Source of the DNA: an uncultured Eubacteriales bacterium | Lineage (GTDB): Bacteria; Bacillota; Clostridia; Christensenellales; Aristaeellaceae | Direction: 5' to 3' | Length of the DNA stretch: 64,000 nucleotides | Assembly: GCA_902764875.1 (NCBI GenBank) | Contig: CACWXP010000001.1 | Location: 124,001-188,000 of the forward strand | In this document: in pieces, positions 38,155 through 41,305 of the stretch | Layout: every line of letters starts with the position of its first letter | How positions within the stretch are numbered: position 1 is the first letter of the stretch | Program-made: the position numbers and the translations under genes | Notes under the pieces: generated by a model | What the model was told of the DNA's origin: nothing | The model's input: only the letters and a program-made list of their open reading frames with translations | Database searches by the model: none

Positions 38155-38157
38155 CAG

Positions 38158-38231
38158 TGAGCCCGGCGGGATTCGAACCCACGACCTTTTGATTCGTAGT
38201 CAAACACTCTATCCAGCTGAGCTACGAGCCC
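38158..38231 (-). tRNA. tRNA-Arg (anticodon ACG)
   Basis: 74 nt. Acceptor GGGCTCG pairs with CGGGCTC (two G-U pairs), the D arm is GCTC...GAGT-like, and the anticodon stem TTTGA/TCAAA encloses the loop CTACGAA, giving anticodon ACG (wobble A expected to become inosine). The T arm is GTGGG-TTCGAAT-CCCGC and the discriminator is A. CCA is not encoded. Confidence 0.95.
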
Positions 38232-38284: not shown

Positions 38285-38357
38285 ATCTTTTTTTTCATTT
38301 TCGCAGGTATTTTTTCCCCGGCTTTTCCCCGTGCCGCTTTTTTGAGGTGCGGACAGC

Positions 38358-38386
38358 TTGTGCGCCGACGCGTGCGCTGATATAAT
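38358..38386 (+). promoter_or_regulatory. Promoter of the HsdR-like gene
   Basis: TTGTGC (38358-38363), 17 nt, extended TGATATAAT with perfect TATAAT at 38381-38386. Start codon 62 nt downstream. Confidence 0.65.
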
Positions 38387-38448
38387 TGTTTCAGATATTA
38401 AATCATCAGATGATGATCGGTTTCTGCGGCGAAGGGAGGAACTCCGCG

Positions 38449-39897
38449 ATGCCAAACGTGCGGCGGGAAGATCTGGAAATGAAGATTCCCGCTTTGATGC
38501 ACCTTTCGCGGCTGGGATACGGCTATCTTTGCCGGGAGCAGGTTCGCCGGCGGGACCGGGAAACCAATATTTTTCCGGAGGCGCTGAGGGCGGCGATGGA
38601 GAGAATCAACGGCAGGCGGATTTCCGACGGAGAATTTGGACAGCTGACAGAAACGCTGCGGATGCAGCTGGATGCGGAGGACCTTGGGAAGGCGTTTTAC
38701 GGGACGATCCGCAACGGATGGAACGGGATCCGGCTGATTGATTTTGACCGGCCGGAAAACAACTTGTTTCAGAGCGCGGCGGAGCTTCCCTGCGGCAACG
38801 GAGAAGGCAGCTTTCGGCCGGACATCACGCTGTTTGTGAACGGGCTGCCGCTGGCGATGATCGAGGTGAAAACCGGGGACCGGAACGGGGGCCTGCAGGC
38901 GGAATACGACCGGATGCTGAAGCGGAGCCAGGGAAAGGAAGCGCGAAGATATCTCCAGGCCGCGCAGGTCTGGGCCTTTTCGGATGATCGGGCGGAGGAG
39001 CAGGACGCGTTGCTACCGATGGAGGGCGCTTTCTATGCAACGGTGGCGGCGGGAGGCTTTCCGGTTTACGGCGTGCCCGGACTGCTGACCCCGGACGGCA
39101 TCCGGCTGCGGGCGAGAAACGCGGAGGAAGAGCGGCGGATCCTGGAAGACAACGGCATTACGGAAAGGCCGAAAAGCGAAGCCTTGCGAAAGAGCATGGC
39201 CCCGAACAAATACACCCACAGGATGCTGACGGTTCTGTTTTTCCCGGAACGGTTTCTGTTCCTGCTTCGATACGGGATTCAATACGTTCGTGAGACGGAG
39301 ACGGCGGGAAAGGAATACCTGACGCGGAGAATTCTGACGCTGCGGCAAATGAGTGTTTTGCGGTCGCTGAGAGGGAAAGCCGCGAGGGGTTTCCTGAACT
39401 GGTCGGCGGCGCCCTGCGGCGCGGCGGGGGAACAGGCGATGAACGCTTCGCTGGTCGCGCTGCTGCGAGACCTGGCGCCGATGGCTTTGCTGCACTGGGT
39501 TTCGACGGACGAAACGGAACAGCGGCGGGACAGAAAGATGCTGGAAGCCTGCGGGGTTGCATGCGTTTCGCGGGACGAGGCACCGGATGGGCGGCTGATC
39601 CTGACGCCTGCGGACGAGGCGTCGGACGGGCGGCTGATCCTGCTGCGGGCGGACGAGGAGTCGGACAAACGGCAGCCGGAATGCGGAGCACGCGGCGGGG
39701 CGGGCCGGAAGGTTTTTATTCTGCCGTCACCGGTTTTCCGATACGGGGCGCGGCGTTCCTTCCATGCGAAGCTGCGCAGGGCGGAACCCGACGCGATCCT
39801 GGTTACGCGGATTACGGAGCGGGAAACGGAAAGAGGATTTTCCGCGGTTGTGATGCGAATGGAAGTTAAACCGGAAAAAGAAAAACAGTACGAGTAA
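38449..39897 (+). CDS. HsdR-derived protein: type I restriction nuclease domain with degenerate helicase
   Basis: 482 residues from ATG 38449 (GGGAGGA 8 nt upstream), half the length of HsdR. Residues 1-145 match the HsdR N-terminal nuclease: NNLFQSAAEL, then SFRPDITLFVNGLPLAMIEVK, giving a PD-(D/E)xK centre of Asp125, Glu139 and Lys141. The usual HsdR linker FFPERFLFLLRY is at 264-274. Where the Walker A motif should be (about 318-330) the sequence is WSAAPCGAAGEQA, with no GKS/T. The later DEAH and TGTP positions are also unrecognisable, and residues 376-415 are a 13-residue tandem repeat. No hsdM or hsdS is present. tldD starts 22 nt downstream, probably on the same transcript. It may be a decaying gene or a repurposed nuclease. 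Confidence 0.75.
   Translation: MPNVRREDLEMKIPALMHLSRLGYGYLCREQVRRRDRETNIFPEALRAAMERINGRRISDGEFGQLTETLRMQLDAEDLGKAFYGTIRNGWNGIRLIDFDRPENNLFQSAAELPCGNGEGSFRPDITLFVNGLPLAMIEVKTGDRNGGLQAEYDRMLKRSQGKEARRYLQAAQVWAFSDDRAEEQDALLPMEGAFYATVAAGGFPVYGVPGLLTPDGIRLRARNAEEERRILEDNGITERPKSEALRKSMAPNKYTHRMLTVLFFPERFLFLLRYGIQYVRETETAGKEYLTRRILTLRQMSVLRSLRGKAARGFLNWSAAPCGAAGEQAMNASLVALLRDLAPMALLHWVSTDETEQRRDRKMLEACGVACVSRDEAPDGRLILTPADEASDGRLILLRADEESDKRQPECGARGGAGRKVFILPSPVFRYGARRSFHAKLRRAEPDAILVTRITERETERGFSAVVMRMEVKPEKEKQYE
39574..39669 (+). repeat. 39-bp in-frame tandem repeat in the HsdR-like gene
   Basis: Copies at 39574-39612 and 39613-39651 and a partial third copy, encoding DEAPDGRLILTPA, DEASDGRLILLRA and DEESDKR. 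They lie in the degenerate helicase portion. Confidence 0.8.
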
Positions 39898-39919
39898 ACA
39901 AACCACAAAGGAGGAGACT

Positions 39920-41305
39920 ATGCTGCACGATGTGATTGGAAACAAGATCAGTCTGTTCAGCGACGGGGTACAGACCGTTTTGCGCGGACAGGAGAACAGG
40001 AACCGGCGGGTTGTGCTGCTGAAAGGGAACCTGGTTCAGAATTTCCGGAGCGAAGCACGGGGGATCAACGCCCGGGTGAACGACCACGGCACGTTCGGAT
40101 TTGCTTCCATCGCCGAATATACTCCGGAAGCCGCCGAAAAGGTGATCCGGGCGGCCACGGAGAACGCCGGGGCGCTGCGGAGACACTCGGGGAGGAACGT
40201 TCCGCTGCCGCCCTCGAAGGGGACGGGGACCATTCCCCTGAACGCGGCGATTACGGACGCGCCGCAGAAGGAGCTGATCGCGCTTTGCCGGACGATCGAC
40301 GGCTATATTGAGACAACCTATCCGGACCTGACCAGCAGAACGGTCGTTTACTCCGAGGATTCACAGGACCGGATCGTCTGTGCCTCGGACGCTTTCTGCG
40401 GGCACCTGGTGACGCCGAGATGCTACGTTTACGTGATGATGAGCGCGGAGACGAAGGACGGGGTTCCGGTGGAACTGTTCAAAGCCTTCGGCGGATTCGG
40501 CAGCTTTTACGACCATTTTCAGGAGCCGGAGAAGCTGTATCCCGGGATCGACCTGCTGCACAAACAGCTGATGGACAAGAAGGAAGGCGTTTACGCCGAG
40601 GCCGGATACAGGACGGTGGTGCTGGGCGGGCTGATGGGCGGCATGCTGGCCCACGAAGCCGTCGGGCACACGGTGGAGGCGGATCTGGTCCGGGGCGGGA
40701 GCGTCGCCGGGCCGAACCTGCACAGGCGGGTCGGATCGGAACTGGTGAACATGGTGGACTTTGCGCACAGCTATGCGGGCGGAGCGGCACCGCTGCCGGT
40801 GTTCCTGGACGACGAGGGGACAAAGGCAGAGGACGCGGTGCTGATCTCGGGCGGGATCCTGACGGGATACATGAACGACCGGGAAAGCGCGGAGGAATAC
40901 GGCATGACGCCGGCGGGCAACGCACGGGGATGGACCTTTTCGGACGAACCCATCATCCGGATGCGCAACACGTGTATCCTGCCGGGGAAAAACACGGTTG
41001 AGGAACTGATTGCCTCCGTTGACGACGGGTACTACCTGATCAACAGCGGAAACGGAGAGGCGGACCTGACGGGGGAATTCATGTTCGGCGTGACATGCGG
41101 ATATGAAATCAAAAACGGCAAGCTGGGCCGGGCGCTGCTGGACACGACGGTGACGGGCGTTGCCTTCGAAATGCTGAAGACGGTGGACATGGTGAGCGAC
41201 ACGGTTGAATGGAGCTCGAGCGGATTCTGCGGAAAGAAGCAGCCGATGGCTGTGGGCATGGGCGGGCCGCACATGAGATGCAAGATTATGATTGGAGGCA
41301 GATAA
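39920..41305 (+). CDS. tldD: TldD-family metalloprotease
   Basis: 461 residues, ATG 39920 after AAAGGAGGAG. The active-site segment is HEAVGHTVEADLV (HExxxH), followed by the DEGTKAEDAVLISGGILTGYMNDRESA region typical of TldD. TldD pairs with TldE to form a heterodimeric peptidase that degrades unfolded peptides and trims some ribosomal peptide antibiotics. The partner gene follows 3 nt later. The HsdR-like gene lies 22 nt upstream. Confidence 0.95.
   Translation: MLHDVIGNKISLFSDGVQTVLRGQENRNRRVVLLKGNLVQNFRSEARGINARVNDHGTFGFASIAEYTPEAAEKVIRAATENAGALRRHSGRNVPLPPSKGTGTIPLNAAITDAPQKELIALCRTIDGYIETTYPDLTSRTVVYSEDSQDRIVCASDAFCGHLVTPRCYVYVMMSAETKDGVPVELFKAFGGFGSFYDHFQEPEKLYPGIDLLHKQLMDKKEGVYAEAGYRTVVLGGLMGGMLAHEAVGHTVEADLVRGGSVAGPNLHRRVGSELVNMVDFAHSYAGGAAPLPVFLDDEGTKAEDAVLISGGILTGYMNDRESAEEYGMTPAGNARGWTFSDEPIIRMRNTCILPGKNTVEELIASVDDGYYLINSGNGEADLTGEFMFGVTCGYEIKNGKLGRALLDTTVTGVAFEMLKTVDMVSDTVEWSSSGFCGKKQPMAVGMGGPHMRCKIMIGGR

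Follow-up and report, generated by a model that had tools for sequence, protein, structure and literature searches.

The reading frame described here raises the question of whether a Type I HsdR that has lost its motor is the remnant of a dying gene or a nuclease that may work on its own. The nuclease of HsdR is usually regarded as useless or dangerous when no ATP-driven motor goes with it. Whether it can act alone, and what use a RecA domain has once its motor is dead, would find a natural test in a family that keeps the nuclease site under selection with every motor motif erased.

The open reading frame and its neighbourhood

The frame lies in a stretch of 64,000 nucleotides of DNA from an uncultured Eubacteriales bacterium (the window). 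The features of the locus are as follows.

38157..38231, minus strand: tRNA-Arg(ACG), left neighbour
38381..38386, plus strand: TATAAT, possible -10 box; the -35 (TTGTGC), 17 nt upstream, is poor (by eye)
38432..38439, plus strand: good ribosome-binding site, AAGGGAGG, 9 nt before the ATG (sequence)
38449..39897, plus strand: coding sequence with ATG start, 482 amino acids and stop codon; HSDR_N, linker, RecA1-like domain devoid of ATPase motifs and a short tail
38467..38988, plus strand: HSDR_N PD-(D/E)xK nuclease domain, residues 7-180 (Pfam PF04313, E=4.4e-23)
38821..38823, plus strand: codon of D125, invariant (family alignment)
38863..38871, plus strand: codons of E139-V140-K141, of which E and K are invariant (family alignment)
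39304..39816, plus strand: RecA1-like remnant, residues 286-456, with the Walker A, DEAH and TGTP places altered (alignment)
39826..39894, plus strand: C-terminal tail, residues 460-482, at the position where the fusions start their GIY-YIG domain (alignment)
39920..41305, plus strand: right neighbour, a TldD/PmbA family protein 22 nt beyond the stop codon; not a conserved partner

The open frame of 482 codons is present as claimed in the earlier note and is the sole copy of its kind in its genome. Of the good promoter and ribosome-binding site described there, the latter stands and the former is only half right, since the perfect TATAAT is paired with a poor -35 and a promoter scan lists no plus-strand promoter for the ORF. 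The residues beyond HSDR_N give nothing above chance in Pfam or NCBIfam, and the hsdR model of NCBIfam matches residues 18-181 only, with 54.9 bits against a cut-off of 284.55. A chance frame in a GC-rich genome was rejected as an explanation on the grounds of the Pfam match and of 12 orthologues. The GC3 of the gene (0.73) lies between the values of its neighbours, and its base composition does not look foreign, so that it gives no sign of transfer.

The gap between tRNA-Arg and tldD is a variable site (38294-39919 in the window versus L167:611-1450). In G012, the nearest genome by UvrC, it holds a HAD phosphatase (Pfam Hydrolase_3, 2.9e-42), of which no close match was found in the window's genome. 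The tldD gene itself occurs with other upstream neighbours in G020, G027, G029, G011 and G041; as a functional partner it was rejected, not being conserved at the loci of other members. No mobile element was found beside the window gene, and a scan of viral contigs gave no relative of the protein. Among 35 plasmid records none covered 80% of the query, and the better of two phage records is an ordinary HsdR of 1031 residues with QGSGKT and an HsdM-like frame after it; none of these viral, plasmid and phage sets thus yielded a member of the family. PADLOC returned no full-length defence-system match, only partial REase_I matches within residues 15-144 (the best at 3e-10).

Nuclease centre and motor region compared with Type I HsdR

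Alignment to HsdR from the N-terminus through motif III, made by eye in the earlier note, is confirmed by comparison with full-length HsdRs; the protein ends 26 residues later. The nuclease centre is intact, as that note had it: in six full-length HsdRs the residues aligned at D125, E139 and K141 are likewise D, E and K. In EcoR124I the equivalent active-site residues are D151, E165 and K167, and the substitutions D151A, E165H and K167A abolish cleavage (PMC2602864). The motor is erased, again as described: the window protein reads CGAAGEQ for TQGSGKT (Walker A), PSPV for DEAH and TRIT for TGTP, and it has neither RecA2, the second RecA domain of HsdR, nor the C-terminal part (482 versus about 1000 amino acids). 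All six full HsdRs compared have the Walker A lysine, DEAH and TGTP, which all 13 members of the family introduced below lack; G043 reads GKTGR, but in a shifted position, so no member has the lysine at its place. Judged by these alignments, the protein is of HsdR ancestry, with the whole PD-(D/E)xK and RecA1-like domains kept and every ATPase motif, RecA2 and the C-terminal part lost.

D125, E139 and K141 are invariant in all 13 members, and so are E112 and the FRPD stretch at 122-125. A family-specific change is found beside the nuclease core, where Q170 is invariant in the 13 members and is replaced by N in all six full HsdRs. Just before the place of the lost Walker A motif, a K-x-x-R-G-x-x-N-W stretch (residues 310-318) is conserved, with G314 invariant, R313 nearly so and N317 and W318 found in 12 of the 13. 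It suggests that the dead RecA1 domain retains a kept surface.

The structure comparison with EcoR124I HsdR proposed in the earlier note is in line with this ancestry. The only PDB match of the AlphaFold2 model under E 0.001 is EcoR124I HsdR (7bto_F, 1.6e-7, TM 0.48/0.52), for a model of low mean pLDDT (57) with block means of 60-93 for residues 11-140 and mostly below 70 from residue 141 on; its RecA part is partly steered, as full HsdRs make up eight of the ten alignment rows. A sequence search of solved structures with the window protein gave no match up to E=1.

With Type I HsdR (EcoR124I and the closest full-length HsdRs, in G329, G214 and G244) the window protein shares the PD-(D/E)xK domain with the same D, E and K, the position and order of RecA1 and the 7bto_F match. 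In contrast to it, the protein is devoid of the Walker A lysine, DEAH, TGTP, RecA2 and the C-terminal part. The gene setting differs as well. The HsdR genes of G329, G214 and G244 each precede an HsdM-like frame, followed in G329 and G244 also by an HsdS-like frame (the G214 contig ends there), whereas no hsdM or hsdS adjoins the window gene, its neighbours being tRNA-Arg, MBL and TldD/PmbA. By the features tested, the protein belongs to a narrow new motor-dead branch of HsdR outside the Type I restriction class.

The statement of the earlier note that no HsdM or HsdS is encoded is right for the neighbourhood but not for the genome, in which HSDR_N and HsdS matches lie together on two other contigs (C5 and C17); the HSDR_N frames there are ordinary. 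Among the 13 member genomes, some of which are incomplete, HsdS is present in six, the window's included, and seven show neither HsdS nor a second HSDR_N match, G018 (97% complete) and G031 (91%) among them. This distribution bears on two explanations that tie the protein to Type I enzymes. It might be an alternative restriction subunit docking on HsdM and HsdS made elsewhere in the genome, as its HsdR ancestry and the six genomes with HsdS would allow. We consider this highly improbable in view of the seven genomes (some incomplete) without HsdS and of the missing C-terminal part, which is presumed in the literature to contact the methylase (PMC4454674). Alternatively, it might be a regulator that binds DNA or protein without cutting, such as an inhibitor of Type I enzymes or a decoy for them; the dead motor and the two Type I loci elsewhere in the window's genome fit such a role. 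Selection for mere binding agrees poorly with the residues kept being exactly the active-site D, E and K (13/13), and in the same seven genomes no Type I HsdS is seen on which it could act, which makes a regulator quite unlikely.

Distribution of the family and constraint on the frame

The motor-dead shortened form occurs in 13 of the genus's 45 genomes, so that truncated orthologues, the search for which had been suggested in the earlier note, exist in 12 other species. The members are 41-62% identical over the shared part, and the homology spans HSDR_N, the linker and the dead RecA1 in the window protein and in the others; in the gene tree the family is one clade (100/100). Among 100 relatives 23 gave some match, most of the weak ones being ordinary HsdRs with a length of 1024-1075 aa. 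In 300 genomes of the wider family, a profile search recovered 12 of the 13 members along with six full-length HsdRs (1006-1074 aa) and no family member outside the genus, and a scan of genome contigs with a few peptide patterns found one member (on a G041 contig) and eight ordinary HsdR frames. No full hsdR with hsdM and hsdS occupies any of the member loci.

The frames are unbroken in all 13 members (455-569 aa). Their starts were chosen from ATG or GTG near the conserved start; in one family alignment the rows L039 and L041 are shifted by one codon from the start adopted afterwards, which leaves the aligned core unaffected. Of the 482 residues 52 are invariant: 39 within residues 1-180, 10 within 181-285, 3 within 286-375 and none thereafter. 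The gene evolves fast, and the last 100 residues are poorly conserved.

The Nei-Gojobori dN/dS is 0.17-0.37 for HSDR_N, 0.18-0.41 for the linker, 0.26-0.68 for the RecA1 remnant and 0.19-0.29 for GIY-YIG. Within HSDR_N it amounts to 0.23-0.32 among the three GIY-YIG-less copies, 0.17-0.27 in three fusion pairs and 0.37 between the window copy and G018. Under a codon model all values lie at 0.11-0.19, apart from that of the last part in the fusions, which is 0.04. For the RecA1 part the methods disagree (0.26-0.68 by Nei-Gojobori versus 0.04-0.19 by the codon model) and dS is near saturation, so the level of dN/dS is a rough one and the relaxation of RecA1 is indicated by one method only. Neither method shows neutral decay: the frame is under purifying selection. 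None of the observations named in the earlier note as refuting its reading (full hsdR with hsdM/hsdS at the locus in relatives together with neutral evolution, or unconserved nuclease residues) was thus made.

These data bear directly on whether the gene is a decaying hsdR remnant that stays open by chance. RecA2, the C-terminal part and all motor motifs are gone, no hsdM or hsdS adjoins, no residue after 375 is invariant and this DNA contains many spurious long open frames, all of which a pseudogene in a GC-rich genome would explain. It would not explain 13 open frames out of 13, the concentration of invariant residues in the nuclease domain with D, E and K among them, a dN/dS well below 1 or the single conserved locus of the fusions described below. 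The pseudogene was rejected on the invariant active site, the open frames and dN/dS, and we regard decay as very unlikely, in agreement with the opinion of the earlier note that random decay does not predict such a frame. Its sequences give the family the appearance of a small, new group of nucleases rather than of a dying gene.

GIY-YIG fusion, history of the window copy and proposed function

The earlier note supposed a possible new partner, and one was found in an unforeseen form: in ten of the 13 members the chain continues in frame into a GIY-YIG (Slx1-like) nuclease domain at its C-terminus, above the family cut-off in all ten (Pfam E=6.1e-20 in the G032 form). It is missing from the window copy and from those of G041 and G003. 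The domain is of the UPF0213/YazA/YhbQ kind, which is free-standing in 30 of the 45 genomes of the genus and, apart from a doubtful tail remnant, does not occur in the window protein. YhbQ and YazA group with Slx1, a branched-DNA nuclease weakly active alone (PMC7017083). A 2006 survey of GIY-YIG proteins describes one HsdR with a GIY-YIG domain inserted, an event judged recent and perhaps irrelevant (PMC1564403). Like the ten fusions, it has HsdR and an Slx1-like GIY-YIG in one chain; its GIY-YIG is inserted at about position 800 and a typical AAA+ tandem is described for it, whereas that of the fusions follows a motor-dead RecA1 in ten species at one locus, and the window copy has none. A motor-dead HSDR_N / GIY-YIG family was not found described in the portions of the literature searched; a description may exist elsewhere.

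With UvrC and a divergent second type set aside, the main UPF0213-like GIY-YIG is present in 40 of the 45 genomes: free-standing in 27, free-standing in addition to a GIY-YIG-less HSDR_N gene in three (the window's genome, G003 and G041) and only inside the fusion in ten. G021, G028, G034, G038 and G042 have none. A free-standing copy of the main type is thus found in 0 of 10 fusion genomes versus 30 of the 35 others (Fisher 9e-7, for fusion genomes that form one clade and count as one event). G018, G031 and G041 show one more short partial GIY-YIG match each, which the main-type probe does not recognise. The fusions appear to hold the only UPF0213-type GIY-YIG of their genomes.

All ten fusions lie directly before SDR and/or NAGPA genes, and HAD and/or HflX genes are near in eight (the exceptions are G025, at a contig edge, and G031, rearranged). 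In G036, G009 and G024 a free-standing GIY-YIG precedes the same SDR, with no HSDR_N. Judging by this order of genes, the HsdR part was most likely placed before a resident GIY-YIG gene.

The history of the window copy was approached through a gene tree and a quick UvrC tree covering 37 of the 45 genomes. The fusion genomes form one UvrC clade (SH-aLRT 99; eight of the ten had UvrC), and the three GIY-YIG-less genomes are scattered in its sister group. In the gene tree, by contrast with their hosts, the three GIY-YIG-less copies are one clade (100/99), sister to the fusion of G018 (97/96) and inside the fusions. The amino acid difference of HSDR_N plus linker is 0.480 in 28 fusion pairs at a UvrC difference of 0.105, 0.381 in the three GIY-YIG-less pairs at 0.192, and 0.496 between the two groups at 0.216. 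The GIY-YIG-less genes are hence closer than their hosts would suggest, which gene transfer fits. They lie at three unrelated loci with no common neighbours, and no conserved partner is seen among the mutually unlike neighbours of G041, G003 and the window. In G041 the tail is similar to the beginning of GIY-YIG (mean 4.4 of 14 identities, with none of 20000 random stretches as good); for the window copy this match is weak (P 0.14), and in G003 there is none (P 0.79). A split of a fusion within the genome of the window copy is not supported, as the separate GIY-YIG (G000:C9) groups with the free-standing ones and not with the fusion domains (over only 75 columns).

Transfer out of the fusion lineage, accompanied by loss of GIY-YIG, fits these data best without being proved; the window copy probably does not represent the founding form but a version that was shortened and transferred. 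One could also suppose that the genus started out with the GIY-YIG-less form, which was lost in most species, with a single fusion in one clade and no transfer. A stage without GIY-YIG must have existed, since the full HsdRs have none, and G036, G009 and G024 show the pre-fusion order of GIY-YIG and then SDR. The AU test is divided: fusions as one clade are not rejected with residues 1-286 (p=0.113) and weakly rejected with residues 1-449 (p=0.039). Ancestry of this kind needs many separate losses on the UvrC tree and sits badly with the three unrelated loci and with GIY-YIG-less copies that differ less than the fusions though their hosts differ more; we find it unlikely.

As to function, a DNA nuclease independent of ATP is the simplest reading, because selection has kept D, E and K while the motor is gone. 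The view of the earlier note, an HsdR-derived nuclease with a dead motor, is supported and gains a partner domain; that it cuts DNA, and does this independently of ATP, is a prediction from sequence. We consider it rather probable that the protein is a stand-alone ATP-independent DNA nuclease derived from Type I HsdR, that it became fixed as a double-nuclease fusion and that the HsdR half was transferred to the window's genome. Cleavage of DNA at the PD-(D/E)xK site would use a divalent metal and proceed without translocation, and the dead RecA1 domain would serve as a rigid platform or a DNA-contact surface. In the fusions the Slx1-like half may direct PD-(D/E)xK to branched or damaged DNA, and the two active sites could cut two strands. 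The window copy, transferred from a fusion-bearing lineage without its GIY-YIG, would act alone or beside the separate GIY-YIG protein of its genome.

Processing of branched or damaged DNA is a natural guess for the role of the fusions by analogy, with defence as the alternative; repair or recombination is placed slightly ahead, with low confidence, in view of the conserved housekeeping position of the fusions. More tentatively, a motorless HsdR may have captured a housekeeping Slx1-like GIY-YIG and replaced the free-standing protein in one clade, its HsdR half then spreading alone as an ATP-independent nuclease for repair or defence; this is a possible course of events in which we have limited confidence.

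GIY-YIG of the same kind also stands at the N-terminus of a frame of 708-746 residues in three genomes of a sister genus (L103 in G345:C504, L104 in G318:C7 and L105 in G347:C382). The remainder of this frame resembles a metallopeptidase with the motif HEGGHALF, which we take to be of family M32. GIY-YIG of this kind is hence readily fused to other proteins, and with its being joined there to a peptidase-like protein, fusion need not mean joint function and is weak evidence alone.

A second, divergent short type of GIY-YIG, about 33-39% identical to the main one, occurs in some genomes, namely G002, G005, G008 (two copies), G012, G016, G027, G030, G035 and G038 (L156-L163, L086 and L115). In G035 it adjoins hflX.
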